This document shows, in pieces, positions 12,124 through 50,476 of a stretch of 58,822 bases of DNA. Source of the DNA: a virus; the IMG/VR virus record IMGVR_UViG_3300035210_000087, positions 1-58,822 of that record. One strand, written 5' to 3'. Made by a program: the position numbers and the translations under genes. The stretch's first letter is position 1; each line of letters opens with the position of its first letter. A model generated the notes under the pieces. It was not told where the DNA came from. It saw only the letters and a list, made by a program, of their open reading frames with translations, and ran no database searches.

Positions 12124-12398
12124 GCCGCCTGCGCCGCCAGCGCGATCCAGTCGCGGACCTTCTGGTGCGAGCCCCAGGCGTGCGGCGGCAGGTTGTGGTG
12201 CATCCACATGGCCAGCCGGGGCATCTGCTGGCGGAGGTGCTCGTCGGCCAGCACCATCGACCACGTCCAATCGTTCGCCAGGATGGCCGCCAGGGGGTGG
12301 GTCAGCGGCGGCGCCTCGCCGCGGAACAGGTAGGCCCCCATCATGGCGGCGAGCTCGGGGACCGGCATCCCGCCCCACTGGATGTTCTCCACACGCAT
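12120..12398 (-). CDS. Hypothetical protein, 92 aa, Trp/Met-rich
   Basis: Starts MRVENIQWGG in an overlap with the upstream stop and ends in an ATGA overlap with the ParB-like gene. Helical with WTWSMVLADEHLRQQMPRLAMWM. No known domain. It may be a partner of the ParB-like protein, judged only by position. Confidence 0.65.
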   Translation of the reverse strand: MRVENIQWGGMPVPELAAMMGAYLFRGEAPPLTHPLAAILANDWTWSMVLADEHLRQQMPRLAMWMHHNLPPHAWGSHQKVRDWIALAAQAA

Positions 12399-12682
12399 CA
12401 GGCATGCCCAGCCGGCGGCTTGAGGTCGAGCCGGGCCGCCATCTCGATCCCCATGCTCAGCGTGACGGCGGTGACGTAGGCTCGCTGCGGGTTGCCGCCG
12501 GATACCGCCACGCACGCCCGGTAGGCTGTCTCACCCAGGCAGGCGAGCCATTCGCTGGCGTCGGTGCCGGCTGGGGTGGCGGCGCCGATCGCCCTCCAGA
12601 GCGCCTCCGCGAGCTTGTCGATCGGCTCGCCATCGGACTTTTTCGGCAGCGGCGGCAGGGGCAGTCCGATCACATCCGGCAT
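12398..12682 (-). CDS. Hypothetical protein, 94 aa
   Basis: Starts MPDVIGLPLPPLPKKSDG. A Pro-rich N-terminus leads into two helices (DKLAEALWRAIG and SEWLACLGETAYRACVAV). No recognised motif. Its first codons overlap the small membrane-protein gene in another frame, a dense packing normal for this block. Confidence 0.65.
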   Translation of the reverse strand: MPDVIGLPLPPLPKKSDGEPIDKLAEALWRAIGAATPAGTDASEWLACLGETAYRACVAVSGGNPQRAYVTAVTLSMGIEMAARLDLKPPAGHA

Positions 12683-12828: not shown

Positions 12829-13562
12829 GGCGCGGGGGCTCCTTGCCGCATGGCTTGCAGGATCTCGGGCGTGAGGGCGCCGCCGCGGCGCTGCATGCCC
12901 GGACGCGAGGGGTCAGACCGGGCCGCCGGCGGGTTGGGCACGAGGTGGAGGTTCTCGGGCGCGTGCTTCTCGATGAGGCCGCGCAGGAGGGTCAGGCAGA
13001 CCGTGATGCTGCCGAGCGGCGGATCGCTGCCGTCGGGCATTGGCGCCAGGATGCCGCGGACGCTTTCGCCGACCTTCGCCGCGTCGCGCCAATCGGCCAC
13101 GACGGCGGCGGTATCGCCGCTGACCAGCAGCCAAGCGCCATGAGCGTGGTGTTTCAGCAGTCCGAGCATGTGATCGCGCCCCGACACGTTCCTCGGCCCG
13201 CCGGCATTGGCGAACCCTTCGGCCTCGTGCTTCTGGAAACGCTTCAGCCACAGCGCTTCCATGGCGGTGAGCTGCAGGCGGCGGTCGCCGGCGGGCGCTG
13301 GCAGGGCGCGGCGGGTGTCCTGCAGCTCGCGATACCAGGCCGAGAGCGCGGCCGTGAGCTCCGCAAACGAGGGGAAGAATTTGAACTGCGGGGCAAGGCT
13401 GGCGAGGCTGGCGGCACAGAAGGCGTCGGTGTGGTGCTCCAGCAGGCTGGCGTAGAGGGCGATCTTTTCCCTCATCGCCCGGTCATCGGCGCCAACGTGG
13501 GTCAACTGCGCGAGGTCGGCCAACCAGGCCGAGATGTGCCGGAGCCGGTCTTTGGGGGTCAT
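12825..13562 (-). CDS. Putative replication accessory protein, 245 aa
   Basis: A helical protein lying directly downstream of the winged-helix replication-type gene, in the position of lambda P after O. The segment TDAFCAASLASLAPQFKFFP then SFAELTAALSAW resembles phage replication proteins that read '...fFPs.aElra.l'. No Walker motif, so it is not a DnaC-type ATPase. Helicase-loader-like function is inferred from position only. Confidence 0.5.
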   Translation of the reverse strand: MTPKDRLRHISAWLADLAQLTHVGADDRAMREKIALYASLLEHHTDAFCAASLASLAPQFKFFPSFAELTAALSAWYRELQDTRRALPAPAGDRRLQLTAMEALWLKRFQKHEAEGFANAGGPRNVSGRDHMLGLLKHHAHGAWLLVSGDTAAVVADWRDAAKVGESVRGILAPMPDGSDPPLGSITVCLTLLRGLIEKHAPENLHLVPNPPAARSDPSRPGMQRRGGALTPEILQAMRQGAPAP

Positions 13563-14380
13563 TGGAGCATCCTTGGGGCGTGGTCGGTGGCGGCCGTGCT
13601 CTCGCCCTCGTCGTCGTCATCGAGGTGCATCGCCGCATCGCCGTAGCTGGGGAGCCCCCAATCCTCCCGGATCCGCGAGATGACGTTGCCGCGGGCGTTG
13701 GAGCGCTTGCGGCGCTGGCACGCGCTGACAAGCCAGCCCTCCGGGTCGATAGGTTTAGTTTCCTCGGCGTCGATCAGAATGGCCATGAGGCGGGCGCAGT
13801 CGTCGCCGAGCATCTTGAGCAGTCGGCCGAGCAGCCCCCTCGCCTTGCGGGGAGGCAGGCCGGTCAGGGCTTGGACGATCGGCGTCCCGTCCTGCCAAAG
13901 CTGAAGTCTGACCCCCCCTTTCACGACCCCATCGGGCGCACTCCGCGCCACACCGTTAGGTGTGATTCTTCTACTGGAGAGTCCTTGGAGAGTTGGGGTG
14001 ACACTGGTGTCACCCTTTACGGTCGTATTTGTCACCCTTTCTCCCGGCAAAGGGTGACAGCGTGTCACCTTTTCCGGCGTAGCTTTCGTTGCGGCCTCGC
14101 GTGCCATCAGAAGTTGGTATTCGGACGAATGGCCGCGTCCGGTTCCTCGCTCAACTGCAATGAACCCAGCCGTCTCAAGATCGAATATCGCGCGCTGAAC
14201 CGACCGCTTCGAGGTCCTAAGCTCGCGCGCCAGCCGGGCCAGTGTTGGGAAACACTTCCCATTGTGGTCGGCGTATTTGGCGAGGATGACCAGCAGCAGC
14301 CGGGTGAAAGTGGTCAGACCCTCGTCGGTCAGGTTCAGCGCCCAGAGCAACGGCGCCCAGCCATTGACGCGGCCCGTCAT
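13559..14380 (-). CDS. Winged-helix replication-type DNA-binding protein
   Basis: 273 aa from MTGRVNGWAPLLWAL. Residues about 15-75 form a winged HTH (TRLLLVILAKYADHNGKCFP, LARELRTSKRSVQRAIFDL, TAGFIAVERGTG), the Rep/lambda-O N-terminal type. The middle is low complexity and the C-terminus has a helical PRKARGLLGRLLKMLGDDCARLM and an acidic DDDDEGES end. Probable origin-binding or replisome-recruiting protein. Confidence 0.7.
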   Translation of the reverse strand: MTGRVNGWAPLLWALNLTDEGLTTFTRLLLVILAKYADHNGKCFPTLARLARELRTSKRSVQRAIFDLETAGFIAVERGTGRGHSSEYQLLMAREAATKATPEKVTRCHPLPGERVTNTTVKGDTSVTPTLQGLSSRRITPNGVARSAPDGVVKGGVRLQLWQDGTPIVQALTGLPPRKARGLLGRLLKMLGDDCARLMAILIDAEETKPIDPEGWLVSACQRRKRSNARGNVISRIREDWGLPSYGDAAMHLDDDDEGESTAATDHAPRMLQ

Positions 14381-14655
14381 GGCCCACCGAGCGCGGCGCA
14401 GGCCACGAACGAGAGCACGAGGGCGGCGGGCGAACGGTCCTCGCGGTGGAGGACCTGAACCGCGCAATCGCGTCGGCCACTGGCGACCAGCGCGCGGCAG
14501 ATCGACACCAGGGGCGCGGGGCCGACGTGGCTTAGCCGGCCGCAGGTGATCCGGTCGCCGTGCAGCAAGGCCACGACCGACCGGATGGGGGAGGCCAGCG
14601 GGACGGTCCCACTGTGGCGGTTGACCCGCCCGGCCAGAAATGTTCCGGGGGTCAT
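14377..14655 (-). CDS. Hypothetical protein, 92 aa
   Basis: Starts MTPGTFLAGRVNRHSGTVP in an overlap with the RuvC-like gene's stop and ends in an ATGA overlap with the winged-helix gene. Contains C38, C53, C64 and C85 and hydrophobic patches (PAALVLSFVACAALGG) that may be a membrane helix. Not recognised. Confidence 0.55.
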   Translation of the reverse strand: MTPGTFLAGRVNRHSGTVPLASPIRSVVALLHGDRITCGRLSHVGPAPLVSICRALVASGRRDCAVQVLHREDRSPAALVLSFVACAALGGP

Positions 14656-15152
14656 GCAGCTCGGACACGCCGCCCCCGCAGCAGCAGGCAGCCGTAGATC
14701 CAGGTGACCCGGGCGTCCGCTTCGTCATCGCCCAGCCCCGCCCAGCCTTGCCGGGCGCACCATGCGATGACGTGGTCCTTGGCGGTGCCCTTTGGAAATC
14801 GGCCTCTCCCCATGACGCGAGCCCGGATGGTCGTCGAGCTCTCGTCGGCAAACGGAATGCGAAGGCGGAAACAGGTGCTTTCGGCGTGGTACGAGAGTCC
14901 CTGCAGCAGCGAGGCGCTGGTCTGCCTCTTCTCGAAAAGCGGGCGCTCGGCGATCACCCAGCCGGGCTGGTAGGCGGCGCACGCAGCCTCGAGCTCGGAC
15001 ACCAGGGCGCAGAAAGCGCGCCCCAAGTTGTCGAGGCCGGGCAGGTGCCAGACGCCGGATATCGGCTCCCGGTCGTTGATCCCGCCGTAACACCACCCGG
15101 ACGAACGGCTGAGATCGAGCGCCAGGACCCCGCCGGGGCCCGGACCACTCAC
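14652..15152 (-). CDS. RuvC-like Holliday-junction resolvase
   Basis: 166 aa, the usual RuvC length. RNase H-fold acidic residues are visible: D13 in VLALDLSRSSGW, E69 in GWVIAERPLF and the C-terminal DDEADA (D142, D143, D146). The KGTAKDHVIAW helix before it also fits. It would resolve branched recombination or replication intermediates before packaging, and complements the Sak4/exonuclease cassette. Confidence 0.75.
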   Translation of the reverse strand: MSGPGPGGVLALDLSRSSGWCYGGINDREPISGVWHLPGLDNLGRAFCALVSELEAACAAYQPGWVIAERPLFEKRQTSASLLQGLSYHAESTCFRLRIPFADESSTTIRARVMGRGRFPKGTAKDHVIAWCARQGWAGLGDDEADARVTWIYGCLLLRGRRVRAA

Positions 15153-20385: not shown

Positions 20386-20935
20386 GGATGTCACGGAACG
20401 GCGAGGCTGGGTGCGGCTAGGCGGGGCGGGGCATGGCCCGGCTCGGCCGTCAAAGCAAGGCTGGGCATGGCGGGGCTAGGCGCGGCATGGATCGGCGCGG
20501 CCGTCTCGGCTTGGCACGGCTCGGCTAGGCCCGGCAGGGCGAGGCACGGCTTGCCCAGGCAGTCGTGGCGGAGCCCGGATTGGCCCGGCCCGGCCCGGCT
20601 CGGCACGCCACGGCGCGGCTCGGCCGTCTTGGCAAGGCATGGCTCGGCGCGGCGCGGCGGGGCATGGCGCGGCCGTCTACACCCGGCCAACAATGGACCG
20701 GAGAGGCATGGTGCGGCGCGGCCCGGTAGGGCCGTCCACATCGGGGCAGGCAGCACGAGCCTGCCCTTCGTGCCGAAAGACCAACGGATGTCACGGAGAG
20801 GCAGTCTTGGCTTGGCTAGGCACGGCCCGGTCGGGCCAGGTTCGGCAGGGCCGTCCAGGATCGGCTAGGCATGGCAAGGCCGGGCTTGGCTCGGCAGTCC
20901 AGGCAAGGCGGGGCGCCAAGGTGCCGGTGGGGAGC
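20386..20935 (+). repeat. Degenerate GGCNN pentamer tract punctuated by GTC
   Basis: About 550 nt built almost wholly of GGCNN units (GGCAC, GGCTC, GGCTA, GGCGC and others). A GGC(C/A)GTC element recurs at 20445, 20499, 20558, 20622, 20671, 20730, 20800, 20849 and 20893; intervals are 54, 59, 64, 49, 59, 70, 49 and 44, seven of eight being 4 modulo 5. A header GGATGTCACGGA occurs at 20386 and 20786. Not protein coding in any credible frame. Directly downstream of the recombination cassette. Confidence 0.9.
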
Positions 20936-28259: not shown

Positions 28260-29834
28260 TTATCCCCAAGCGTAGATGGTGGTCTGGTTGTTGGCGAAGT
28301 CTTCGATCATGCCGATGACCAGCAGGAACTTGCCGGCCAGGCCAAAGCGGTCAGTGGCGATCGAGATGGTGGTGCCCAGGTCCACCGCGGAGGCGAGCTC
28401 TGGCGGAACGACAATGGTAACCAACAGGCGCCGGGCTCCGTAGAGATTTATCAAACGCGAGGCCTCGGTGTTGGAGAACAAGGCCGTCATCAGACAGGTG
28501 TTGAACTCCATTGGCTGCGACGTTGGATTGCGCCCGGTGCTGGTTGCTGGATCCCATATCGCTGGCATCGACCAAACGGTGTAGCGGTATTCGTTGGCGA
28601 GATAGTCTTTGCGGGCCGCGGTGACGGCGCCAGCAACGTTCGCCCCGGAAAGCGTCAGGAAGGTGCGCGCGTAGCCCAGCTTGACCTGATAGGTCGGAAT
28701 GCCGCGCGACTGATCCGCCGTCGGCTGCAGCACGATGACCGAGCCCGACGTGTTCAGGAGTTGCTGCTCGGTAAAGGTGACGACGGCTGGCCCGGTCGGC
28801 ACAACCAGCATGGTGAGGTTGAATTTGCCAAGCCGGTTTGGCGTCCAGCTTGCCCCGACGCTGCCCAATACGAGGTCGAGGACATCGCCCACCTTGGCGC
28901 CCGCGCCGGCCGCAACGAAGTGCCCGCACCCGCCATCGGCTGACAGGTTGAGCGCCGCCACCCCGAGGATGTCACCGGAGGACACGCCAGCGCGCTGCAG
29001 GACGGCATTCGCGATGTCGGCGGCCTTCGCCGCTGACAGGTTGGCCGAGGCCGTGATGGGCAAAGACGGACTTGAGCCGAGGCGGATGTAGCACCCCTCT
29101 GCCCCCGACCCGAGCGAGTAGTCGTAGGTCGCCGCGGCAGGCGCCGTTGCTTCGAGCGCCGCGGCATTGGCCCGCGAGGTCCCGACCGGGATGGCGTTGC
29201 CGCCCTCCCACACGCCGCCGATCGCAGCCACGGGGTCGGCGCTCAGGTGGTAGATCAGCTTGGAGCTGTTGACGCGCGTGGGCTCGAAGCCCGCCGGGGA
29301 GCCAAGCACCAGGGGCATCGTCTGCCCCTTGATGTCGTCGATCGTGCCGTCGATGCCGGCCGGCAGCACGTTGGTGCCGCCGTAGCGTGTGGTCACCAGC
29401 AGCTTGTCGGCCACCTCGGACCGCCTGTCGCGGATGCGCGCGGTGACGGTGCTCTCGGTGACATCGAGCTGGTCCAGCGTGCCCACGAGGACGGTGGTGA
29501 AGCTGGCGCGGGCGGCGCGCTGGTCGCCGCGCAGGATGGTGATCGCCCGGCCGTCGAAGTCGTAGTTCAGGAGGTAGTCCAGGCCGCCGTCGAGGTTGGC
29601 GAGCTCCACCACGCCGGCATTGACGCTGCCGGCCCCTCGCGTGGCGCCGGCCGCCCACATATGCCGCTCGTAGGAACCCGGGGAGATGACGCGCGGATAG
29701 TAGATCGTGTTGGCGGGCGTCTCGGCCGGCTTGGTGACGTAGCCCACGCCCGTGCAGTAGCGCAGCGTCTCAAGCGCCCCGCCGGCGCTGACCGGCTGCA
29801 GGCCCACGATCTCGATAAGGTAGATGGTGCTCAT
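28260..29834 (-). CDS. Tail tip/baseplate hub-like protein, 524 aa
   Basis: Directly follows the tape measure gene (4-nt overlap). Contains beta-rich repeats and the closing FLLVIGMIEDFANNQTTIYA, a motif at the C-terminus of hub-type phage tail proteins ('...lv.gi..d...n.vtl..wg'). VELANLDGGLDYLLNYDFDG and RAITILRGDQ near residues 75-105 fit the same group. Confidence 0.6.
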   Translation of the reverse strand: MSTIYLIEIVGLQPVSAGGALETLRYCTGVGYVTKPAETPANTIYYPRVISPGSYERHMWAAGATRGAGSVNAGVVELANLDGGLDYLLNYDFDGRAITILRGDQRAARASFTTVLVGTLDQLDVTESTVTARIRDRRSEVADKLLVTTRYGGTNVLPAGIDGTIDDIKGQTMPLVLGSPAGFEPTRVNSSKLIYHLSADPVAAIGGVWEGGNAIPVGTSRANAAALEATAPAAATYDYSLGSGAEGCYIRLGSSPSLPITASANLSAAKAADIANAVLQRAGVSSGDILGVAALNLSADGGCGHFVAAGAGAKVGDVLDLVLGSVGASWTPNRLGKFNLTMLVVPTGPAVVTFTEQQLLNTSGSVIVLQPTADQSRGIPTYQVKLGYARTFLTLSGANVAGAVTAARKDYLANEYRYTVWSMPAIWDPATSTGRNPTSQPMEFNTCLMTALFSNTEASRLINLYGARRLLVTIVVPPELASAVDLGTTISIATDRFGLAGKFLLVIGMIEDFANNQTTIYAWG

Positions 29835-32800
29835 CGGGCTGCCAGCCGCTTGGCGGAGCCGGCCGCTTGCTGGGCCACCGTGGTGTTCTCCTGCACCGCC
29901 TGCACGGTCGCGATGTGCCCCTGGGCCGCCACCTGCGTGGCCGCCGCCTGTGCCCTGCGCAGCGCCGCGAGCTCCGCGCGCACGGCGCGCAGCTCAACCA
30001 CCACGGCCTGGTTGTCGTTGGCGCGGTAGCTGCCCGCATTCATTCCCGGCAGCACGTCGGCATAACGGGCAGCCTGGGATGCGTTGACCACATACTCGCC
30101 GCCGGCCAAGCCGATGGTGCCGCCGCCGGCATAGGCCGCGATGACGCTGTCCTTGTTCCAGACGCCGTTGCCGACCCAGCCGCCGGCCGCCATCCCGTGC
30201 GTGGACTTGTATTCGGCCGTGCTCTGGATCCCGCGCAGGACCTCGCCGGATGAGGCGCCGCTCTGCATCATGGCGACCCAGAAGGCCAGGCCTTCCGCAT
30301 CCGGGGCCCGGCCCAGCGCGCTCCGGTAGATCGCCGTCACGGTCGTTGTGGCGCGGGACTTGTACTCGTCGGTGCCGGCCATGGCCCGTTCGAGGGTCGA
30401 GAGGGTGACGCCGCCGGTCGCAAGCTGGCCCTGCCAGTAGGTCAGGCCGGCAGCATCCGGGGCGCGGCCGAACATCTCCTGGTAGGCCTGGGTGACGGAG
30501 GAAACAGGCTGCGGGCCAACAAGCTGCGCTGCCGTTGCGGCCTGCGCCGTGCCGCTGACATCGGAGGCCAGGGCAGTGGCGCCGGTGGCGCGCTGGTCGG
30601 CCGCCAGCTTGGCCGCGTAGGTGCTGTCGGTCAGCGCCTTGAGCGCATCGAGCGTGGCCGGCGCGACGGCGCCCATCGCCTGCACGGCCGCCAACTGCGC
30701 CTTCAGCACGGTGAGCTGCTCGCCGAGCAACTTGACCTGCTGCTCTTGCGGGCTGGCGGTGTCGACCATCGCCGCGGACGCTGCCGTGAGGGCTTTCTGC
30801 ACGGCCTCAAACTCGGCCGCGTAGCCGGGGCCAGCCTTGCCGTAATAGCTCTCGGCCAGCGTCAGCCGGGTGGTGGCGTCGGTCTGAAGCTGGGAGGCGG
30901 CAGCCGTGCGCTTGGCGGCATCCACGGAAGTGTCGCTGGCCGTGGCAGCCGATGCGGCCATGGCGGTGCGGGCCGCCGCGAGCTTCTGCTCTGGGGTCAA
31001 CGGCGAGGCGGCGGACGTGAACAGGCCGGCGGCGAACTTGGTCAGCGCCTCGGCTGCCGTGCGGAGGCTGGTCGCCAGGGTGGTGGCCGAGGAGGCTGCG
31101 GTTTCGTTGGCAGAGATCGCGCTGTTGAGGGCCGTCTCGTAGGCCGACCGCGCCGTGGTGTAGGCGTTGTTGGCTGCCTCGGCCGCCTGGACCGCCATGA
31201 GGGCGTCGATCTGCACGGCCGTTTGCCAGGAGGAAAGGCCGAGCTCCTTCAACGCCGATGTCGCGGTGACGATCTGATCCCTGAAGGTCGCCGCATCCGA
31301 GGACGAGGTGACCAGGCCGGAATTGCCGGTGACGGTGGCGAGCCGGCCGGTGAGGGCATCGGTCCAGTCGTTGAGCCCCTGCGCCTGCTTGGCGGCGAAG
31401 TCCCTGATGATCTTCTGCCGCTCGGCCACCTGCGTCCGGGTGAGCTGCGCCACCAGGTCGGCATATTCCGCCGTGGTCGCGTAGGCGCTGCCGAACGCCG
31501 TGGTCAGGGTGCCCATGAACGACAGCATTTCGGTCTTGGCGCTGGCGGCGGCGGTGGCCAGGGACGTGACCAGACTGCTGGGGGCGTTGTCGTTCGCCAC
31601 GTTGACGCGCGCTGCCATGGACGCGCGCTCAGTGGCCACCGTTGCGGCCGCCGCGTCGTTGAGCGCCTTGATGCTCGCCGCTCGCTTGGTGTTCAGCACG
31701 TCTTCCGACAGGCCGTATTTGACGGCCGAAACTGTGGCCGCGTCGAAGCTCGTGTTGACGCTGTTGATCGACGTTTGCAGCGTGCCGATGCTGTCGACCG
31801 TGACGCCAGTGAGCTTGTCGAAGTCGGCGGCGGCTTGAACCCCTGCGGCCAGATCATCCCATGTCGTGAAGGTGTTGTTGGCGAGGACCTGCTTCAGCGC
31901 CGCGCTGCCGGTTGCGGAGCTGAACGTGAACGCCTTGGCGGTATCCTGGAAGCTGGACTGCTCGCCGGCCACGCCGGTGTTGTTGCCGCCGACGATTGAG
32001 GTTCCTGACGCGACGATGGCGTGCTCGGTCAGGTAGGCGTTGACCTTCGCCATGGCGGACATATCCGCCGTCCACTGCTCCTTCGCGACGTTGTTGTAGT
32101 GCTCGTCCGACGTGACGAGCTGGCCGCTCTCGTTGGCGCTGACGTGGTAGCCCCATCCGTTGTGCGCGGCTCCCGGCCCGAAGAAGGAGCCAGCAATGCC
32201 GCCGATGAGGCCGCCGATCGCTGAGCCGATGGGCCCGAACACCATGCCGATGGTGGCCCCGGCCGCGGCGCCCACCATCGCCTGGTCGTTGTGGCCCGGG
32301 TTGATGGCGCTCCCGGCCAGCGTGCCGGCGCCGAAGCCGATGCCCCATCCCGCCACATAGGTGCCGACGGTGCCGGCGATGCCAGAAAGCGAGCCGGAGG
32401 ACATCTCCGCTGTCGTGCCAGCCATCTCCGCCGCCGGGACCTCACCGGCCACGAACGCCGCCTGGCTGGACGACAGGCCAGTGCCGAGGTTGGTGACGCC
32501 CCATTGGTCGATCGAATTGACCACGCTGCCCCAATCGACGCCCATCAGCTTCGACCCGCTGGAGGCGGCGCTGAGCAGTGACGAGCCGTTGCTGAGCAAA
32601 GAGCTGCCCGTTGAGCTCGTCTTGGCCCCGCTGCTGGATGTTCCGGAGCCGCTGACCAGCGTGTTGTTCGTCGTGTTGATGATCGCGGAGCCGTTGGTCA
32701 GGCTGGTGCCGCTGTTGGTGATGAGGTCGCCGCCGATCGACGTGGTCGGCTTGTCCTCCGCCGTTGACGCCAGGCCGAGCGCGCCGAGGATCGACGTGCC

Positions 32801-35800
32801 CCACGATGTCGGGCTGAGATCGACGTTGCCACCAATCTTTTCCGCCACCCCCGACAGCGTCGTGAGCTTCTGGCCGTCCATCGCGTTCAACAGCGGATTG
32901 AGGATCGAGATTTTCAGCGCCCATTCGCCGAGCTGCGTGCCGATCCCCTGCAACACGGTCTTGAAGTTGACGCCGGCCGCAGAGCCTTTCACGAAGGCGT
33001 CGGTGATGCTCGATCCCACCGTGGTGAAGATGGAGGTCATCTCGCTGGCGATGTCGGCGCTGACCTGCGTTTCCTTGGCGAGCTTCTGCTGTGCCGCCGT
33101 CTGGCGCACCGCCGCGTCAATGGACTGCTGGGCCACCTCCGGGCTGAGCTTCTGCAGCGTCTTCTTGGCCTCGATCTCGGCCTTGAGCGCGGTAAGCACC
33201 AGGGCGCGCTTGTCGGCATCCATGCCGAGGGTGGTGATCTCGGCCTCGATGTATTGGGTGCCGAGGTTGGTGTTGAGGGTGGCGCGCTGCGTGGTCTCGT
33301 TGGCGAGCGCCGCGCTCTGCTTGTCGAGCTTCGCCGTCAGCGCCGTGACCTTGGTCTCGTACTCGGCGGACCCTTCCTTGGTGGTCTTGCGGGCCTCTTC
33401 CTCGGCCTTGATCCGGTGCGTCAGGGTGACGGTCTCGGCACCGCCGGCCGCCAGCGAGGCGGTCAGCCGGTCATTGCCGGCCGTCGCCCGGTCCATCGCG
33501 TCCATCTGGTCGCGAAAGCCAGCATCGAGCTCCTTCAGGCGCAGGACCCGGCCGCGGTCAAGCTGCTCCTGGCTGGCGCCGGTGAGGCCCATTGCCTTGG
33601 CGGCTTCGTTGAGCTGCTGGTCGGTCTTGGCGAGCTCGCGGGTGGCGCCGCTGGCAACATCAGCGCTGGACGCCTGTTGCTCCATCGAGTGCAGGAGGGT
33701 TTCGACGGGATCGCGGCTGGCGTAGAGCGCGCCCTTCGTCGCCTGCAGCCCGCGGTTGATGGCGGTGTTGGCCTTGACGCCTTCCTCGCCCATCGTCTGC
33801 CACAGCGCGACGCCCGAAGGCGTGATCTTGTCCAACTCGGCCCGCGCCGCCTGGAACATCTTGAGGTTGCGCTCAAGGCCTTCGTGCGTCTCGTCGAACA
33901 CATGGAGCCCGGCGTAGAGCTTCTGGGCATCTTGGATGAGGCCCTTGGCGTCGGAGCTCGTGGCGCTTGGCGCCGGCGGCTGGTCGTAGACAGCGCCGGT
34001 GGGCGCGGTCGCGGTTGCCGTGGTCGTGGTTACCGGGCCGGATTCTCTGCGGGCAGTGCGATCCCAATGGCTGCCGCCGCTCTCCTTCAGCGCGATCCTG
34101 AGCGCGAAGTCGATCTGCTTGGGGTTGGCGCCCTGCGCCGTGGCCTCGGCGATGATGTCCTGCCGGGCGATCTCGGGCACGTCGCCGGCCCGGCGCGAGG
34201 CCACGTCCTGCGCATAGTAGGAGGCGTCCACCTTCCTCTTGGTGGAGGTTCGGCCGGCCTTGATGTTTTCGAGACCCAGGTCGCCCTGGAAGTAGGCCTG
34301 CGCGACATCGGCCTCGATGCCGTTCCACCTCTCCCACGCCTGGAGGATGCGCTTGATGCCGCCCTTGATGTTCTGCGTGTAGTCGGAGGAATTGACGCCA
34401 AGGTCGCTGGCAGTGCCATCGAGAAGCTGGAACATGCCGGTCGCTGTGGAATCGGGGTTCTTCAGCACCGGGAAGTTGCTGACGGTGTAGTTGGTGTCGC
34501 CGCGCGACGTGACCGGGCCGGATGTGCCGGTGGGGATGTGGATCGGGATGTTGGGGGCAGGCCCGGAAAACAGCCGCTCCATGCGGCCGGCGTCCTGATC
34601 CGACAGCTTGATCTGTGCGCGGACCGCCTCGATCCGGTTGACCAGGCGCTCAAGCCTGTCGACGACAAAGGTCAGCCCGACCACCATCGCCCCGCCGACC
34701 GCCTCAAGGATCGGCCCAAGCTGCTGCTTCAGCTTCTCGAACGACTTGCTGAGCTTGTCGAGCGCCTCGCCGGCGTCGTTCACGGGCTTGGAGGCGCCGC
34801 CAACGGCCGCCGTGAGGGCTGCGATCAGCTTGGCCGTGGCGGCGGACTTGTCGCCACCGGCCTGGATGTCGGCGATGTATTTTGCCAAGCCGTAGCCGAC
34901 AGCCTTCAGCCCTTCGTCGGCGAGCTTCTTGGCCTCTGTACCAGGGTCGCGGAAGGCCAGCGCCAATTCCTTGGCGGCTTCGGGGGCGGTCTTGCCCATG
35001 ACTTTGGCAAGGTCGGTGGCGAGCTGCAGCAGCACGTCCATGTTCGCCCGGGCTGTCGCAAACTCCGGCGTCGAGCCAATGATCTCGGCCGCCGACTTGG
35101 CATCCTTCCGGTTAAGGCCGGAGATGGACGCCGCCGCCCTCTTGGCGGAGGCCTCGATGTCGTGGGCAAGGGTGACGTAGTCGTCGTGGGTGCCGCGGAG
35201 GTGCTGCGCCAGTTCGTTCAGCTTGGAGATGTGGCTTTCGTGCGCCACGATGGCGGCAACGCTCATCCCGACCAAGGCCGCGGTGGCGGTTATCGCCGCG
35301 TAGCGCAGGCTGAAGATGGCTTCGATGATGCTGCCGACACGCTTTGCCACGCCCGCCATCGTGTCGAAAAGGTTCTGGTTCATCTCAGCCAGCACCATCA
35401 GCGAGCCGGGGATGCGGCTGTAGGTGCCGATGAGGGCTTCGTGCGAGATGACGATGAATTCGCGGATGGCGTTGGAATTGACGGCCGTGCCGTTGGCGGC
35501 TGAATGCGAGTGGCTGATCTGCTCGGTGGTCGCCCGCTTGTAGGCGGCCTCGACCTGCTGCAGATCCACGATCATCTGCTCGTCGGAGATGTGCCGCTCT
35601 TTGTTGGCGGCAACGATGTCGGCGGTTTGCTTGATCCGGGTCTGCTCGGCGGCAAAGACGTGGTCGATCGACGACTTGGTGCTGGTGTAGGACGAAATCA
35701 TTTTGGCGTTGGCGTTCGCCACATCGACCGCCGCCGCGGCGGCCTCACGCTCAGCTTTGGCCGTGTCCGAGACGGCGTTGTAGACCTCCATGTAGCGGAC

Positions 35801-37171
35801 GTAGGCGGCGGCAAGCGTTGCGTTGGCCTGGGCGCGCTGGCTCTCGTCGGCAGCCACGGCGGTCGTGGCCGCGACCACGGCGCGCTCGTAGGCCACAATA
35901 GCGGCATAGATCGGGTCAACACCGGCACGGGCAGCCGCCAGATTGGCCGTGTTCGCCGCTACGGCCGCGCTGTTCAGCCGCAGCGCTTCGGTGGCCAAGC
36001 TCTCGGCGTTCGCCATGGTCTCGGTCGAGCGCACCACCTGGGCATGGTTGGCGCGGAGCTGCGCCATGATCGCAGCCGCAGCTTCCTTGCTGCGCGTGCC
36101 GGCATCGACGGCAGCGGCAAGCTCGATCTCGGCGGCGGCAAGTTGCTGCTCGGAACGGAACACCGGATCAATGGAGGCGTGCCAGGCATCGAACCGGGCT
36201 GAAATGGCCGCCACACCGGCAGCCTGCTTGGCTGCGGCGGCAGCATTCTGCTCCATGGCCGCGGTGACGAAGGTCAGCGATGACAGCGTGGCATCGAGGA
36301 CGGACTTCGCCATCGCAATGGCGCGGTTGGTGTCGTCCTGGGTGATGCCGGCGTGGCCGGTCGCTGCGGTGGCGATCCGCACGGCATCGTTATAGGTGTT
36401 CCAGGCGGCAGCCGCGGGATCGAGGCTGCCTTGCAGGCTGCGGAAGCTGGACACGATCGCCGCGGACTTGGCGGCGTTGCGCTCGACCTCGGCGGTGTTG
36501 CGGCGCAGCGCCTCGGCGGTGCCGTCGAGCTCGGCAACCGTCTCGGCGTAGGCAGCGCGGACCTTGGCGACTACGGGCGCCACGCCGGCCCAGGTGGTGA
36601 TGTTGTTGTTGACAGCGGCCGTGCAGACCGCCAACCGCTCGTTCTGGGTGGCGAGCGCGCCCTCCAACGGAAACATTTCATTGCGCAGAGAGGCGTAGGA
36701 CTGCCCGGCCTTCGCGACCGTGGCGGCCTGCTGCTGCTGGCTGCGCTCCGCCTTGCCCAGTGCCGCGTTGAAGCCGGAAAGCTCGAGAATGGTGCTGCGG
36801 TAGATTTGGAGCGAGAGCTCCTTGACGGCGTTGGCGGCGACCTCCGAGACCTTGAGCCGTTCGACGGCCGTGTCGCAGATGTCGAGCGCACGCTGGTAGT
36901 TCGCCAGGGCGCCATAGACGGGGTCGAGCCGTTCCTTCAGCCCCTCGTAGGAGAGCGCAGCCCGCTGCACTGCGGCCGCGTTGGCGGCGGCGCCTTTCTC
37001 GGCGATCCCCTGCTTCTCCGTGACCGCGACGAACGCCGCTGCCACCCTGCCGATCGCGCTCTCCAGCGTCGCCATGTCGGAGGCGCCGCCGGCGGCAATT
37101 GCCTGCAACGCCGCCTTGAAGGTCTCGGCCTCGCGCAGCGTCAGCCGGATCGAAAGCGTGCCACCAGCCAT
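29831..37171 (-). CDS. Tail tape measure protein, 2446 aa
   Basis: N-terminal TLSIRLTLREAETFKAALQA, then about 500 residues of Ala-rich coiled coil, helical segments, and a GMFQLLDGTASDLGV stretch (about 910-925) reminiscent of lytic transglycosylase domains. Hydrophobic Gly-rich helices (about 1600-1670) are followed near 2220-2325 by two DUF4214 units, AYQEMFGRAPDAAGLTYW and IYRSALGRAPDAEGLAFW. It ends AGGEYVVNASQAARY. Scaled at 0.15 nm per residue it implies a tail of roughly 350 nm. Confidence 0.9.
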   Translation of the reverse strand: MAGGTLSIRLTLREAETFKAALQAIAAGGASDMATLESAIGRVAAAFVAVTEKQGIAEKGAAANAAAVQRAALSYEGLKERLDPVYGALANYQRALDICDTAVERLKVSEVAANAVKELSLQIYRSTILELSGFNAALGKAERSQQQQAATVAKAGQSYASLRNEMFPLEGALATQNERLAVCTAAVNNNITTWAGVAPVVAKVRAAYAETVAELDGTAEALRRNTAEVERNAAKSAAIVSSFRSLQGSLDPAAAAWNTYNDAVRIATAATGHAGITQDDTNRAIAMAKSVLDATLSSLTFVTAAMEQNAAAAAKQAAGVAAISARFDAWHASIDPVFRSEQQLAAAEIELAAAVDAGTRSKEAAAAIMAQLRANHAQVVRSTETMANAESLATEALRLNSAAVAANTANLAAARAGVDPIYAAIVAYERAVVAATTAVAADESQRAQANATLAAAYVRYMEVYNAVSDTAKAEREAAAAAVDVANANAKMISSYTSTKSSIDHVFAAEQTRIKQTADIVAANKERHISDEQMIVDLQQVEAAYKRATTEQISHSHSAANGTAVNSNAIREFIVISHEALIGTYSRIPGSLMVLAEMNQNLFDTMAGVAKRVGSIIEAIFSLRYAAITATAALVGMSVAAIVAHESHISKLNELAQHLRGTHDDYVTLAHDIEASAKRAAASISGLNRKDAKSAAEIIGSTPEFATARANMDVLLQLATDLAKVMGKTAPEAAKELALAFRDPGTEAKKLADEGLKAVGYGLAKYIADIQAGGDKSAATAKLIAALTAAVGGASKPVNDAGEALDKLSKSFEKLKQQLGPILEAVGGAMVVGLTFVVDRLERLVNRIEAVRAQIKLSDQDAGRMERLFSGPAPNIPIHIPTGTSGPVTSRGDTNYTVSNFPVLKNPDSTATGMFQLLDGTASDLGVNSSDYTQNIKGGIKRILQAWERWNGIEADVAQAYFQGDLGLENIKAGRTSTKRKVDASYYAQDVASRRAGDVPEIARQDIIAEATAQGANPKQIDFALRIALKESGGSHWDRTARRESGPVTTTTATATAPTGAVYDQPPAPSATSSDAKGLIQDAQKLYAGLHVFDETHEGLERNLKMFQAARAELDKITPSGVALWQTMGEEGVKANTAINRGLQATKGALYASRDPVETLLHSMEQQASSADVASGATRELAKTDQQLNEAAKAMGLTGASQEQLDRGRVLRLKELDAGFRDQMDAMDRATAGNDRLTASLAAGGAETVTLTHRIKAEEEARKTTKEGSAEYETKVTALTAKLDKQSAALANETTQRATLNTNLGTQYIEAEITTLGMDADKRALVLTALKAEIEAKKTLQKLSPEVAQQSIDAAVRQTAAQQKLAKETQVSADIASEMTSIFTTVGSSITDAFVKGSAAGVNFKTVLQGIGTQLGEWALKISILNPLLNAMDGQKLTTLSGVAEKIGGNVDLSPTSWGTSILGALGLASTAEDKPTTSIGGDLITNSGTSLTNGSAIINTTNNTLVSGSGTSSSGAKTSSTGSSLLSNGSSLLSAASSGSKLMGVDWGSVVNSIDQWGVTNLGTGLSSSQAAFVAGEVPAAEMAGTTAEMSSGSLSGIAGTVGTYVAGWGIGFGAGTLAGSAINPGHNDQAMVGAAAGATIGMVFGPIGSAIGGLIGGIAGSFFGPGAAHNGWGYHVSANESGQLVTSDEHYNNVAKEQWTADMSAMAKVNAYLTEHAIVASGTSIVGGNNTGVAGEQSSFQDTAKAFTFSSATGSAALKQVLANNTFTTWDDLAAGVQAAADFDKLTGVTVDSIGTLQTSINSVNTSFDAATVSAVKYGLSEDVLNTKRAASIKALNDAAAATVATERASMAARVNVANDNAPSSLVTSLATAAASAKTEMLSFMGTLTTAFGSAYATTAEYADLVAQLTRTQVAERQKIIRDFAAKQAQGLNDWTDALTGRLATVTGNSGLVTSSSDAATFRDQIVTATSALKELGLSSWQTAVQIDALMAVQAAEAANNAYTTARSAYETALNSAISANETAASSATTLATSLRTAAEALTKFAAGLFTSAASPLTPEQKLAAARTAMAASAATASDTSVDAAKRTAAASQLQTDATTRLTLAESYYGKAGPGYAAEFEAVQKALTAASAAMVDTASPQEQQVKLLGEQLTVLKAQLAAVQAMGAVAPATLDALKALTDSTYAAKLAADQRATGATALASDVSGTAQAATAAQLVGPQPVSSVTQAYQEMFGRAPDAAGLTYWQGQLATGGVTLSTLERAMAGTDEYKSRATTTVTAIYRSALGRAPDAEGLAFWVAMMQSGASSGEVLRGIQSTAEYKSTHGMAAGGWVGNGVWNKDSVIAAYAGGGTIGLAGGEYVVNASQAARYADVLPGMNAGSYRANDNQAVVVELRAVRAELAALRRAQAAATQVAAQGHIATVQAVQENTTVAQQAAGSAKRLAAR

Positions 37172-45278: not shown

Positions 45279-47183
45279 CTATCGACCGATCCTCGCCATA
45301 TATGCCGATCGACCCACACGACGATGCGGGCCAGCCGGCGGTGCTTGGGGGGGATGCGGCCTCGGGGGGGTGAATGGACCCCCAGGCGGCTCCGTTTCGG
45401 AACCATCTTGGTTGGGCCGGCGGCGGAACAGGGTCCAAAACCCTTCTCCGTGCCGGTCGGCACCCAAGATGTAGAGGGCCGCGCGGGCGTAAACCGCACA
45501 ATCTAGCCCCTCGTTCCGTTCTCGCGTTTTGCGCCATTCTCGCTTCGTCTGTCCAGCGCGATCCTTGGTCGTTACCAGTTCTTCGGCCACCATTTGCTTG
45601 ACGGCCTCACTGTCGCACCATTCCGGGAGGTGGACCCAGCCGGCCGGGAAGCCGACACCGTCGCCGCGCGACAGCCAGAGCCGGCGGTAGAAGTCAGACT
45701 TGTAGGTGCTGACTGAGACGTTCCAGATCGCCAGCCCGCGCCTGAGTTTCTGGCCGTTCCAAGAGACATCCACGAAGGTCGGGCCGCTCACCGGCTGGCG
45801 GCGATCGAACCCCTCAACGCCACGCATGCCGAGGATGCGGGGATCGCGCAGCCGGCGGAGCTGGCCGTAGATCGCCGCGGTGTAGAGGCCGGCGACATCG
45901 ACGCCAACCTGATGGATGCGCATCGTCCCACCGTCGGCGCAGGGCCAGTTGGTGGCGAGCAAATCCGCCATTTCGTCCCAGGTTTCCGACTGGGACGGGT
46001 TGCCCCAGACGATTTCACGGGCGATCAGCCAGGACGTGAAGCCTGGACCCCACGCCCACACAAAGAGCTCAAGTCGGTCGGCCTGGTTGTCGATTCCCGC
46101 CGTCAGAACCAGTGCCTCGGCGGGGATAATGCCGGCATCAAGCGGCTCGCGGCGCTCGACCAGCCGTTCCCAGTCCGGCACGTCGCCCTTGTCCTCCCAA
46201 AGCTCGGCCAGCGCGGTGTTGAGGAACACGCGCAGCAGCTCGGGATCGTCCTTGGCCTCGAGGAAGTCGCGGGTGGTCTCAACAATCCGCCGCCACGGGC
46301 TGTAGAGTTCGGAAATGGTGTAACCGGCGATGCCCTGGAACGGCTTGGAAGCCCGCCAACTGCCGACCGACACCGCAAACCGGCGCTCGGCCTCTGACCA
46401 TGGCTTGTCGCACGCCTTGCAGTGCAGTTTCGCCGTCCGCCAGTCGTTGTCCGTCCACTTCACCTGCGAAAAAGTGAGCGTTTGCATGGTGCTGCAGTGC
46501 GGGCACGGGACGAAGTAGCGCCGCTGGTCAGATCCCTCGAACGCTTTGTCGATGCGCGAGCGGCCCAATGTGGTTGGGGAGCTGCAAAGGATAATCTTGC
46601 GGTTCCAAAACGTGGATGTGCGCTTGATCGCCAGCGCCAGCGGGTCGCCTTCCTTGCCGGCGGAGGCGGGATAGCGGTCGACCTCATCGCAGAACAGGAC
46701 GCGGATCGGCCGCATGGCCAGGCCGGCGGCGGCATTGGCGCCCACGATGGTGACATGGCCGCCAGGGAAGACCTTGTGCAGCACGCGGTTGCCGCTGTCC
46801 CAGGACCGGGCCGGCTTGACCTTGGCGGCGAGGGCGGGGCTGTCGCGCAGCATCGGGCGCAGCCGGTCGTTGGACCACGCTTCAGCCGCTACCTCGTTGG
46901 GGGTGACGTAGAGCATCGCCGAGGGGTCGCTCGCGATGTAGTAGCCGACGCCATTGTTCAGGATTTCCGTCTTGCCGACCTGCGAACTCCACTTGAGCAC
47001 CACCTGTTCCACGGTCGGATCGCTGATCGCGTCCATGGGCTCGCGCTGATAGTTGGCGCGCTTGGTGTTCCACTGGCCGGGCTCGGCGGAGGCCTCCGGA
47101 CTTAGCCGCCGGTGGCGGTCAGCCCACTGGCTCACCGTCAACTTCGGCGGCGGCGTCAGCGTCCGCAGCATCATCATCGCCGC
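45279..47183 (-). CDS. terL: Terminase large subunit (GpA type)
   Basis: 634 aa from the ATG at 47183 (GGAAG upstream); 47264 is an alternative. Walker A-like KWSSQVGKTE (62-71), Walker B VLFCDEVD (160-167), zinc-binding CPHC...CKAC (about 217-250), nuclease acidic residues in TAGIDNQADRLELF. Matches the lambda A family (641 aa). ATPase and cos-cutting nuclease for packaging. Confidence 0.95.
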   Translation of the reverse strand, partial: AAMMMLRTLTPPPKLTVSQWADRHRRLSPEASAEPGQWNTKRANYQREPMDAISDPTVEQVVLKWSSQVGKTEILNNGVGYYIASDPSAMLYVTPNEVAAEAWSNDRLRPMLRDSPALAAKVKPARSWDSGNRVLHKVFPGGHVTIVGANAAAGLAMRPIRVLFCDEVDRYPASAGKEGDPLALAIKRTSTFWNRKIILCSSPTTLGRSRIDKAFEGSDQRRYFVPCPHCSTMQTLTFSQVKWTDNDWRTAKLHCKACDKPWSEAERRFAVSVGSWRASKPFQGIAGYTISELYSPWRRIVETTRDFLEAKDDPELLRVFLNTALAELWEDKGDVPDWERLVERREPLDAGIIPAEALVLTAGIDNQADRLELFVWAWGPGFTSWLIAREIVWGNPSQSETWDEMADLLATNWPCADGGTMRIHQVGVDVAGLYTAAIYGQLRRLRDPRILGMRGVEGFDRRQPVSGPTFVDVSWNGQKLRRGLAIWNVSVSTYKSDFYRRLWLSRGDGVGFPAGWVHLPEWCDSEAVKQMVAEELVTTKDRAGQTKREWRKTRERNEGLDCAVYARAALYILGADRHGEGFWTLFRRRPNQDGSETEPPGGPFTPPRPHPPQAPPAGPHRRVGRSAYMARIGR

Positions 47184-47706
47184 TTCCGCCAGCCCAGGCG
47201 GGCCGATCAGCTTCAGGCTCGGCTGCGTAGACGGGAGTGCTAGCGAGAGCTGCGAGGATGTCATGGACCGCTTCGGTGAGAATGGCGTGGATGGCCGCGA
47301 GACCCGGAGCGGCCTCGATGAGCGGCGCCACACGCGAGGGAAGGGCGAGCAGTGCGGTGCGGACAAGCGTCGCGAGGGCAACCCAGGCGCCCCCGACAAC
47401 GGACTTTTCGAGCACCAACCCATCAAGCAGATCAGCTTCGCGCAGCGCCTTGCGCGCACGGGCCGCCAGCAGCAGGTCCTTGGATGAGGGCGCGGCGTTA
47501 TCGTTGCCGTCGTTGCCGCCGCCACGTTTTCGCAGGAAGCGGATGTATCCCTGCACGCACGGAATGACCTCGTAGCGTTTCGCCACGGGCAACGGGATCA
47601 CACCATTGCGGGCATGATAGTAGACCTGGCGCTCTGTCATATCGAGCAACCGGGCAATGACTGTGGCGGGCGCAAATCCGCCGCCAACTTCGGGTTCGGC
47701 AGCCAT
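47119..47706 (-). CDS. terS: Terminase small subunit (Nu1-like)
   Basis: 195 aa. APATVIARLLDMTERQVYYH then RNGVIPLPVAKRYEVIPCVQ is an Nu1-type winged HTH at the N-terminus. Acidic C-terminus (GDDDAADADAAAEVDGEPVG). Overlaps the large subunit by 65 nt in another frame. In lambda this protein binds cosB just upstream, where the 28-bp repeat array begins here 225 nt away. Confidence 0.8.
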   Translation of the reverse strand: MAAEPEVGGGFAPATVIARLLDMTERQVYYHARNGVIPLPVAKRYEVIPCVQGYIRFLRKRGGGNDGNDNAAPSSKDLLLAARARKALREADLLDGLVLEKSVVGGAWVALATLVRTALLALPSRVAPLIEAAPGLAAIHAILTEAVHDILAALASTPVYAAEPEADRPAWAGGSGDDDAADADAAAEVDGEPVG

Positions 47707-47930
47707 GCAGTCAGCTCCACGAAAGTTAGGGAGCGGGCTGGACGGCGGCCACCCTCGGCCTTATCGGACCCGATACATCAAGGCCATTGCTGGCACTCGA
47801 CTTGCCGATATTGGGGGCATTTGATGTGAAACGCGAATTTTAAGCTGTATCTCGGGTTGCACCGGGCGTCTGCCACCCTCATTGGTTCCGACGCCGTAGG
47901 GTCCCCTGGCGCCGTCACATCTCACTGAGA
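47707..47930. other. Non-coding region between terminase and repeat array
   Basis: No supported gene. Position relative to terS makes it a candidate for a cos region, but no cos site can be recognised from sequence alone. Confidence 0.4.
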
Positions 47931-48402
47931 TGTTATCGCGATCGCGAAACCACGTTTCTGTTATCGCGAAAAGAGAATAACGTTTAAGTCATCGCGATTG
48001 CAGAACCACGTTTATGTCATCGCGCGCAAGCAACCACGTTTATGTCATCGCGCAAAGCGAACAACGTTTTAGTTATCGCCGATTAGGAATGACGTTTGTG
48101 TTATGGCGTTTAAGGAATGACGTTTAAGAGATGGCGCATTGGGAATAACGTTTAAGAGATGGCGCATTAGGAATGACGTTTAAGAGATCGCGAAACAGGA
48201 ACAACGTTTCTGTTATCGCGAGTAAGGAATGACGTTTAAGAGATCGCGCATTGGGAATGACGTTTAAGAGATGGCGTTTAAGGAATGACGTTTAGGTTAT
48301 AGCGCCAACGTAACCACGTTTAAGTTATCCCTACTAAGGAACAACGTTTAGGTTATCGCGCTATCGAGATGACGTTTTAGTGCTCGCGCCATCGGAATAA
48401 CT
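47931..48402 (+). repeat. 28-bp tandem repeat array, cluster 1 (about 17 units)
   Basis: Units of 28 bp: left block AAGTTATCGCG (or TGTCATCGCG, GAGATGGCG), about six variable bases, right block GGAATGACGTTT (or AACCACGTTT). Many units carry an imperfect dyad, ATAAC-N6-GTTAT. Spacing is strictly 28 bp in most. Iteron-like. The variable part is only 5-6 nt, so this is not a CRISPR array. Confidence 0.9.
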
Positions 48403-48853
48403 GGTAACTGTCATGTATCACTTGAGCGAATGACAGCAATGCAAGAATATCATTAGGTCATATACTTTACTCTTCCGGGAAGTATGCAAATACCAAGGGC
48501 TTGAAATTGCTCACTTGATTACATGGTTACTCTAGTTCGTTTCGCTTTCCGTATGCCTCTAGAAAGGCCAGGGATGGGCCACTAGAGGCTTGCAGTGATT
48601 TCAGGTATCGCACTAGCGGGGTGGTAGGTTGCAAGCCGCTGGCGACATTTTCCACTTACGGAAAATAGGGCTTATTCTGTATAGTTGCTTATACGCACGG
48701 CACGTTTATTGCTGTCGTGCCATGGTATGTTTGCGGAGTATTATGGTATGTTTCTACTAGGTAACAGCAATTTGTATAACACGTTTTTCCCATACGCGGA
48801 TATGAGAGCACTACTGCAAAGGCAATGTTGCCTTGCAGAAAGGAGAAACCACC
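48403..48853 (+). other. AT-rich non-coding region with nested palindromes
   Basis: Much lower GC than the rest. Palindromes: GCCTCTAG...CTAGAGGC (48555-48589, with inner GGCC/GGCC), ATTTTCC-6-GGAAAAT (48647-48666) and GGCACG-11-CGTGCC (48699-48721). ATGGTATGTTT occurs twice, 20 nt apart, from 48722. A frame at 48685-48900 is unlikely to be real. Resembles an origin or promoter region. Confidence 0.6.
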
Positions 48854-49234
48854 ATGGCAAAGCCTGCTTCTACTCCTGCTTCTACTCCTGTCATCTCTGA
48901 AAAGGACAAGCTGTTAGCTTCTGCTCCCATCCCTTCACAGCAAGAGATTGATATGCAGGTTGCTGCCTTTGAAGCCGCAAAGCAGAAGGCATTCGTTGAT
49001 GCTTGTGCTGCCTTGGGCTTGGTAGCAAAGCCCAAGGCTGAAAAGTCAAGTGAGCCTGTAGACTATAGGGAGTCTGGTATCAAAGCCGCTGCTACCTATA
49101 AGGCAAAGCTAGAGGCAGAAAGGAAGGCAGCTTTCGCCGCTGGCAAGCCGCTGCCTCTTTCCGCTGGCCAGAAGGCAGCTTTGACCAAGCTGCAGAAGCA
49201 GGCAGCTTGGGAGGCCAAGAACAAGAAAGGCTAA
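48854..49234 (+). CDS. Basic Ala/Lys-rich protein between the repeat arrays, 126 aa
   Basis: Starts ATG at 48854 with AGGAG 8 nt upstream; an upstream TTG in frame is not preferred. MAKPASTPASTPVISEKDK, helical Ala/Lys stretches (KAAATYKAKLEAERKAAFA), and QKAALTKLQKQAAWEAKNKK at the end. Codon use and GC differ from the neighbours, suggesting transfer. A strong terminator follows. Histone-like or repeat-binding role is inference. Confidence 0.7.
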   Translation: MAKPASTPASTPVISEKDKLLASAPIPSQQEIDMQVAAFEAAKQKAFVDACAALGLVAKPKAEKSSEPVDYRESGIKAAATYKAKLEAERKAAFAAGKPLPLSAGQKAALTKLQKQAAWEAKNKKG

Positions 49235-49258
49235 GCCTCTCTCCTAGGTTAGTCGCAA

Positions 49259-49290
49259 GGGCCACCCGCAAGGGTGGCCCTTTCTCTTTG
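49259..49290 (+). terminator. Intrinsic terminator after the 48854 gene
   Basis: GGGCCACCC-GCAA-GGGTGGCCC, a perfect 9-bp stem (49259-49280), then TTTCTCTTTG. Strong and well placed 24 nt after the stop. Confidence 0.9.
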
Positions 49291-49292
49291 TA

Positions 49293-49530
49293 CCCTGGCC
49301 CCTGGCCCCTGGCCCCTGGCCCCTGGCCCCTGGCCCCTGGCCCCTGGCCCCTAGCCCCTAGCCCCTGGCCCTGGCCCCTGGCCCCTAGCCCCTGGCCCCT
49401 AGCCCCTGGCCCCTAGCCCCTGGCCCTGGCCCCTAGCCCCCGGCCCCTAGCCCCTGGCCCTGGCCCCTGGCCCCTAGCCCCTGGCCCCTAGCCCCGGCCC
49501 CCTGGCCTTGGCCCCGGCCCCGGCCCCGGC
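49293..49530 (+). repeat. CCCCTGG/CCCCTAG heptad tract, G-quadruplex-prone
   Basis: About 238 bp of seven-base units, mostly CCCCTGG with CCCCTAG interspersed and occasional six-base units. The minus strand reads GGGGCCA repeatedly, an ideal series of G-tracts for quadruplex formation. Directly downstream of the terminator. Proteins translated from it are artefacts. Confidence 0.9.
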
Positions 49531-49543
49531 AATCCATGCCGTC

Positions 49544-49780
49544 TAAGGAATGACGTTTCTGTGTTTGCGTGCTGGCAAACACTGCTATGTCATCGCGATT
49601 GCAGAACCACGTTTAAGTTATCGCGTTTACGGAATGACGTTTAAGTTATCGCGTTCGGAGAACCACGTTTAAGTTATCGCGCCATCGCCATGACGTTTCG
49701 TTTATCGCGGGAAGGCAATAACGTTTAAGTTATCGCGCCATCGCCATGACGTTTCTGTGCGAACCGTCCTGACGACGTTT
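49544..49780 (+). repeat. 28-bp repeat array, cluster 2 (about 8 units)
   Basis: Same unit and orientation as cluster 1, with five well-conserved 28-bp periods (for example AAGTTATCGCG...ATGACGTTT). An extra stem-loop, GTGTTTGC-GTGCTG-GCAAACAC (49561-49582), interrupts the first units. The two clusters flank the 48854 gene and heptad tract. Confidence 0.9.
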
Positions 49781-49913: not shown

Positions 49914-50213
49914 TCAGCCGGCGCCATCTCGGCGCTCGTGCTCGCCAGCATCGCGTTCGGCTGCGCGAAGCCGCTCGATGTCGCCGCGACGCATTCCCCA
50001 AAGTGGCGGCTTGCGCCTGGCCTGGGAGAACGCGCGCCACTCACGCAGGAACTCGGCGAGCGAGAGCGGGATCGGCCGGCGACCGGCAAGCATCTGCATG
50101 ATCGTGCCCGGCGTCGAGCCCAGCCGCTTGATGAGATAGTTGTGCGACCAGCCGATTTCGACGAGGCACTCGCGCATCTCTTCGGGCAGCATTGGTTCAG
50201 TATCGTCGCTCAT
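49914..50213 (-). CDS. Helix-turn-helix DNA-binding protein, 99 aa
   Basis: Start MSDDTEPMLPEEM with AGGAG upstream. LVEIGWSHNYLIKRLGSTPG and TIMQMLAGRRPIPLSLAEFL form an XRE-like HTH; the C-terminus is a basic helix. It lies beside repeat cluster 2 and divergent from the 50477 operon. Candidate binder of the 28-bp repeats or the 50.3-kb control region. Confidence 0.7.
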   Translation of the reverse strand: MSDDTEPMLPEEMRECLVEIGWSHNYLIKRLGSTPGTIMQMLAGRRPIPLSLAEFLREWRAFSQARRKPPLWGMRRGDIERLRAAERDAGEHERRDGAG

Positions 50214-50476
50214 TGCGTGTAGCTCCTGCAAGTAATGACGTGACGTATGCGTAGTCGGCGGCCGAACGAACTAGATTTTTTTCATCAACTTGACTTGGAC
50301 AAGGCCAGCAAAACTGTCATTATGTGACCTCTTCCCTTGCCTTGCCTTCCCTGCCTTCCCTGCCTTCCCTGCCTTCCCTTGCCTTCCCTGGCCTTCCCTG
50401 GCCTTGCCTTCCCTGGCCTCGCCTGACTTCGCCAAAGGCAATAATGCCTCGGCGAACACCTAGCGGAAGATGACAC
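50214..50476. promoter_or_regulatory. Divergent control region before the early operon
   Basis: Contains a short AT-rich stretch, then the pentamer tract at 50331-50433. No unambiguous promoter could be fixed. It divides the HTH gene from the rightward operon. Confidence 0.45.
50331..50433 (-). repeat. Second GGCNN/GGGAA pentamer tract, minus strand
   Basis: On the minus strand it reads GGCGA, AGTCA, GGCGA, GGCCA, GGGAA, GGCAA and so on for about 100 nt, the same style as the 20.4-kb tract, including one AGTCA punctuation. Strongly strand-asymmetric (C/T on plus). Confidence 0.75.

Follow-up and report, generated by a model that had tools for sequence, protein, structure and literature searches.

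We identified an island of about 2 kb in an uncultivated virus contig (IMG/VR record IMGVR_UViG_3300035210_000087; 58.8 kb, 65% GC; we call this whole stretch the window) in which two arrays of 28-bp direct repeats enclose an AT-rich block and a small gene for a basic protein. The island lies next to terS, the gene for the terminase small subunit. With a probability of roughly 40%, we read it as the TerS-bound packaging and genome-end region of a cohesive-end phage with a GpA-type terminase. This reading is favored because the repeats form a single locus, because that locus adjoins terS and because the phage encodes a GpA-type terminase. Coordinates of all features are collected in Table 1.

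Both arrays are far above chance. The lag-28 identity of array A is 0.79 over 140 bp and the lag-56 identity of array B is 0.74, while the maximum over lags 20–60 in 200 dinucleotide shuffles was 0.47. All units lie on one strand with exact 28-bp spacing, which bears out the two same-orientation arrays described in an earlier, sequence-only reading of this DNA. The conserved blocks described there hold in part: ACGTTT starts 16 of the 17 units of array A (all but the first) and five units of array B (from 49609, with degenerate units on both sides), but the exact sequence TTATCGCG is present in only nine array units. The stable unit core is AC..TT..G..ATCGC.....G.AAT. Each unit is built from two related 14-bp halves (lag-14 identity 0.42–0.49, against a background of about 0.23 ± 0.04). 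An ATAAC-N6-GTTAT dyad had also been attributed to many units; only one of 21 units has it in perfect form, and the arms show no covariation (permutation P = 0.95). The site is thus better read as an asymmetric, same-strand motif. A CRISPR array was considered and ruled out, as the 28-bp units are tandem and lack spacers.

A weight matrix of the units gave scores of 24–45 bits within the arrays and at most 13.1 bits elsewhere (null maximum 8.7 ± 3.3 bits, largest 16.8). Nothing comparable to an array unit thus occurs elsewhere in the 58.8 kb, and this confinement points to a single-locus site, not a dispersed operator. It bears directly on the idea that the arrays are operators or enhancers of divergent promoters, read by the 99-aa protein encoded beyond array B and controlling the leftward late operon. 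The island does lie between leftward late genes and rightward genes, and the adjacent 99-aa protein gene is well conserved. However, promoters elsewhere in the genome have no unit, a set of 25 operators would be out of the ordinary, and both genes flanking array B end toward it, a poor position for an operator. Given this position and the confinement of the motif to the arrays, operator arrays are unlikely.

The same parts occur in the same order in a sister phage (L009, IMG/VR contig 3300034349_000055): terS, array A, AT-rich block, small basic protein, terminator, GC-rich minisatellite, array B and helix-turn-helix (HTH) protein. A second contig (L010, 3300035210_000071) is 99.9% identical to L009 where they overlap; the independent islands known number two, those of our record and of L009. 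Judged by sequence conservation, the sister phage shows the island to be a real functional unit. The two phages have no array unit in common, with the nearest units 3–8 mismatches apart, and yet constrained and free unit positions agree between them (rho 0.75, P 4e-6). Both arrays also keep the same side and orientation, and three noncoding blocks (49, 34 and 36 bp) show no change despite differences at 54% of synonymous sites in the adjacent small gene. The small gene itself has a dN of 0.29 and a dS of 0.94 (dN/dS about 0.3), which, together with 68% protein identity, indicates a real gene under purifying selection.

Other parts of the island change quickly. Identity with the sister phage, 98% next to terS, is down to about 62% by the edge of array A; turnover is therefore much faster in the arrays than in the neighboring DNA. 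Repeat number differs between the two phages, and the neighboring minisatellite has been fully replaced: its units are wholly unrelated, a 7-bp CCCTGGC (49293–49527) in one phage and a 19-bp AGGTGCGGCCCCTGCACCC (619–855 of L009) in the other. These differences would suit a neutral tandem-repeat expansion, devoid of function, around a recently acquired gene. The shared pattern of constraint among differing units, the preserved side and orientation of both arrays, and the invariance of the adjoining 49- and 34-bp stretches all argue against such an expansion, which we consider the least likely of the explanations weighed here.

Several observations are consistent with a role in packaging. First, TerL carries the GpA ATPase and nuclease domains (PF05876/PF20454), and phages with lambda-type (GpA) terminases normally have their packaging site directly upstream of terS; array A starts about 220 nt from the terS start. 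The TerS model has a winged-helix-like order of elements at low confidence, which makes a Nu1-like TerS a less secure assignment than a GpA-type TerL; the model was of too low quality for a fold search. Second, the two phages agree in the core positions though the units differ, while TerS is 99% identical. Third, lambda TerS binds repeated R sites in cosB, which adjoins cosN (PMC4669245). Finally, the RcC Rhodobacter phages, among the closest TerL matches (42%), have cohesive ends with 11-base 5' overhangs (PMC8601537). In the RcOceanus record, 1.2 kb containing small genes separates terS from the left end; this record begins exactly at a start codon, and its zero point may therefore be a convention. 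The end of contig L010, about 34 nt outside array A, is a weak hint. The sequence-only reading had offered an iteron-type origin, a partition centromere and a terminase-binding site side by side, and the surroundings favor the third: a GpA/Nu1-type terminase, an adjoining terS and a motif found nowhere else in the genome.

In the mechanism that we propose, TerS made from the gene about 220 nt away would form a long lattice by binding side by side to the tandem 28-bp units of array A and possibly also to those of array B. This lattice would mark phage DNA and guide TerL to cleave concatemers within the island or close to it. A cut within the island would place terS at one chromosome end, with the leftward late genes running from it. 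By analogy with the phages cited above, the chromosome ends should be found there or nearby. The small gene has a base composition and, probably, a promoter and terminator of its own; it may then be an accessory (moron-like) gene at the chromosome end.

Other observations weigh against a packaging site. About 70 more distant GpA loci, including those with the most similar TerS proteins (L011, L012, L017 and L089), have no such arrays upstream of terS, and the motif piece CGTTT is not clearly enriched there (54 seen, 43 expected). We found no lambda-like cosN (GGGCGGCGACCT, up to two mismatches) between terS and array B; the nearest similar sequence, at 50074, falls within the 99-aa protein gene. 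Since cosN differs from phage to phage, the exclusion covers only a cosN of the lambda kind. The island also showed no conserved IHF site. At 2 kb and about 25 units, the island is also far larger than the lambda cos of about 200 bp. Moreover, the DNA-binding domain of SF6 TerS showed little preference for such repeats, so repeats near terS are by themselves no proof of TerS binding.

Known packaging sites match the island in part. Lambda cos (cosQ-cosN-cosB) likewise combines a GpA/Nu1-type terminase with repeated sites directly upstream of terS. Lambda has three R sites, one of them inverted, in 200 bp, whereas the island has tandem same-strand units throughout, a gene between its arrays and no recognizable cosN or IHF site. 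The pac sites of SPP1 and SF6 (pacL-pacC-pacR) also place direct repeats next to terS, in two regions around a central stretch. In contrast to the island, SPP1 pac is short and overlaps the start of terS, its box repeats differ from the island units, and the SPP1/SF6 terminases belong to a different class from that of this phage.

The main rival of the packaging reading is a replication origin, which is possible but doubtful. An O-like initiator (or a host factor) would bind the 28-bp units as iterons and open the neighboring AT-rich block. In P1/F-type iteron replicons, ori iterons, rep and inc iterons follow one another, and the two arrays around the small gene, next to AT-rich DNA, would resemble this layout. 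The phage encodes an O-like initiator with an HTH_36 domain (13559–14851, minus strand). No iteron array occurs near the initiator gene, so the record has no iteron-like set other than the island arrays. The DNA with the lowest GC content in the record adjoins array A (the two lowest 80-bp windows, at 48396 and 48726, GC 0.35–0.36), and the strongly invariant noncoding blocks also fit an origin. The AT-rich character described by the sequence-only reading is upheld, and some palindromes are present, with only part of them surviving in the sister phage. Against an origin, the initiator gene lies 33 kb from the island, the gene between the arrays is not recognizably a Rep gene, neither the DnaA box TTATNCACA nor its looser form occurs in the island, the kilobase from 48 to 49 kb has 45% GC, and no clear origin-like switch in GC skew is seen at the island.

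It is unlikely, though less so than operator arrays, that the island is a partition or stability site, at which the small basic protein (or the 99-aa protein) would bind both arrays as a centromere and allow an unintegrated prophage to be inherited. Such a site would act like those of mycobacteriophage RedRock, which has two parS loci (parS-L and parS-R) of eight direct 8-bp repeats each (PMC7157519), or of plasmid R388, which StbA stabilizes through two sets of five 9-bp repeats, the stbDRs (PMC3098194). Like these systems, the island has two direct-repeat arrays near one small protein gene; its repeats are 28 bp instead of 8–9 bp, and there is no detectable protein homology. The record contains no integrase that we could find, and it encodes a ParB_N-domain protein (11539–12405, minus strand). 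However, this protein lies 36 kb away and its match is confined to the N-terminal domain. A ParA-type ATPase (PF13614) is absent from the record and from both sister contigs, in searches whose positive controls worked. The low-confidence model of the small protein has no recognizable DNA-binding fold, and we found neither an S24 repressor nor a clear sign of lysogeny.

We also considered that both arrays and the 126-aa protein form a self-contained nucleoprotein system of a new kind, in which a lattice of 14-bp modules repeated in 28-bp steps (2.67 helical turns) would be bound by the small protein and would couple the marking of DNA for packaging with genome maintenance. This seems slightly less likely than a stability site. 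The earlier statement that no named element combines these parts holds in the collections searched.

A search for the repeat unit in other phages, which had been suggested along with that statement, has now been carried out. IMG/VR scans with two unit patterns, one invariant block, the small protein, the 99-aa protein and the initiator recovered only the L009 and L010 contigs. At the sensitivities used, no further copy of the island was found in IMG/VR, GTDB genomes, phage records or plasmids, the small protein being the sole query for plasmids. Upstream of terS, about 70 GpA-terminase loci had no arrays of a different sequence either, and the repeat-rich ends of RcPescado contain no comparable array. 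A k-mer search for a cos motif shared among GpA phages returned motifs restricted to subgroups, none clearly common to the window.

If the island is a packaging site, it would be a terminase-recognition array of very large size and unusual regularity, and a clear test case for the number of TerS sites usable by a cohesive-end phage and the reason for it. An origin or a centromere would instead show the mode of replication or persistence in a phage lineage that apparently lacks an integrase. On any of these readings the island is a conserved cis-acting locus, known from two related phages, in a group that lacks cultured members and has no near relative among the phage records searched.

Table 1. 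Features of the repeat island and the adjoining terminase genes.
Feature	Position	Strand	Evidence
terL, lambda GpA-type large terminase	45279–47240	-	PF05876 (E 4.9e-85) and PF20454 (E 8.8e-82); frame as translated, true start not fixed
terS, terminase small subunit, 195 aa	47119–47706	-	phrog_57 (E 2.8e-18); 99% identical in sister phage (alignment)
Intergenic spacer between terS and array A	47707–47923		47701–47800 98% identical in sister phage; nested palindrome GGCCTTATCGG-AC-CCGATA...AAGGCC
Array A, 17 direct 28-bp units, each of two 14-bp half units	47924–48399	+	Repeat analysis
Invariant noncoding blocks (49 and 34 bp)	48450–48498, 48505–48538		Alignment with L009; fold z-scores near 0 or positive
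Palindrome/hairpin field in AT-rich block, partly conserved	48541–48740		Palindrome and fold scans, L009 alignment
Probable promoter and leader of small gene	48741–48853	+	TATAAC box, invariant 36-bp block (48790–48825), hairpin, AAGGAG
Gene for 126-aa basic helical protein, pI 9.6	48854–49234	+	Sole known relative is the sister phage copy, 68% identical
Intrinsic terminator, 11-bp stem	49257–49282	+	Directly after small gene; strong stem, kept in L009
GC-rich minisatellite, 7-bp unit CCCTGGC, about 34 copies, C-rich on + strand	49293–49527		Unrelated 19-bp unit at same place in L009
Array B, about 8 direct 28-bp units, edge units degenerate	49544–49774	+	Repeat analysis
99-aa protein	49914–50213	-	88% identical in sister phage; no family match; helix-turn-helix is the judgment of the sequence-only reading

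The 49- and 34-bp invariant blocks are not predicted to fold, which fits protein-binding DNA. A structured RNA on the minus strand of 48400–48860 was considered and rejected (z –3.6 here, only –1.6 in L009, with weak short-window scans), and Rfam gave no match. The 126-aa protein has no family match, and a fold search with its low-confidence model returned no match at E < 0.001. The promoter scan by itself was at chance level, as was the terminator scan overall. The G-rich tract noted earlier is present as the GC-rich minisatellite, with its C-rich strand on the plus side. A second minisatellite, pyrimidine-rich (CTTGCCTTCC), lies at 50331–50424, where the 99-aa protein gene is followed by a rightward gene.

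The island has the leftward terS on one side and mostly rightward genes on the other; portal and head-protease genes follow the terminase genes leftward. The segment beside terS (47707–47800), which contains the nested palindrome, is as conserved as coding DNA (98%) and is a candidate cut or promoter site.

We rejected the start of the record as a physical genome end. Bases 1–127 are identical to bases 1–127 of L010 (3300035210_000071), compared with a difference of about 9% elsewhere, and this identity resembles an assembler k-mer overlap. The shared first 127 bases thus point to an assembly-graph end, and the genome is probably incomplete. The record also contains a minus-strand open reading frame of 2446 aa (29831–37171), poorly conserved in the sister contig (about 68–82% DNA identity where aligned), and a GC-rich array of 10–15-bp units (20474–20673) that is partly present in the sister contig too.
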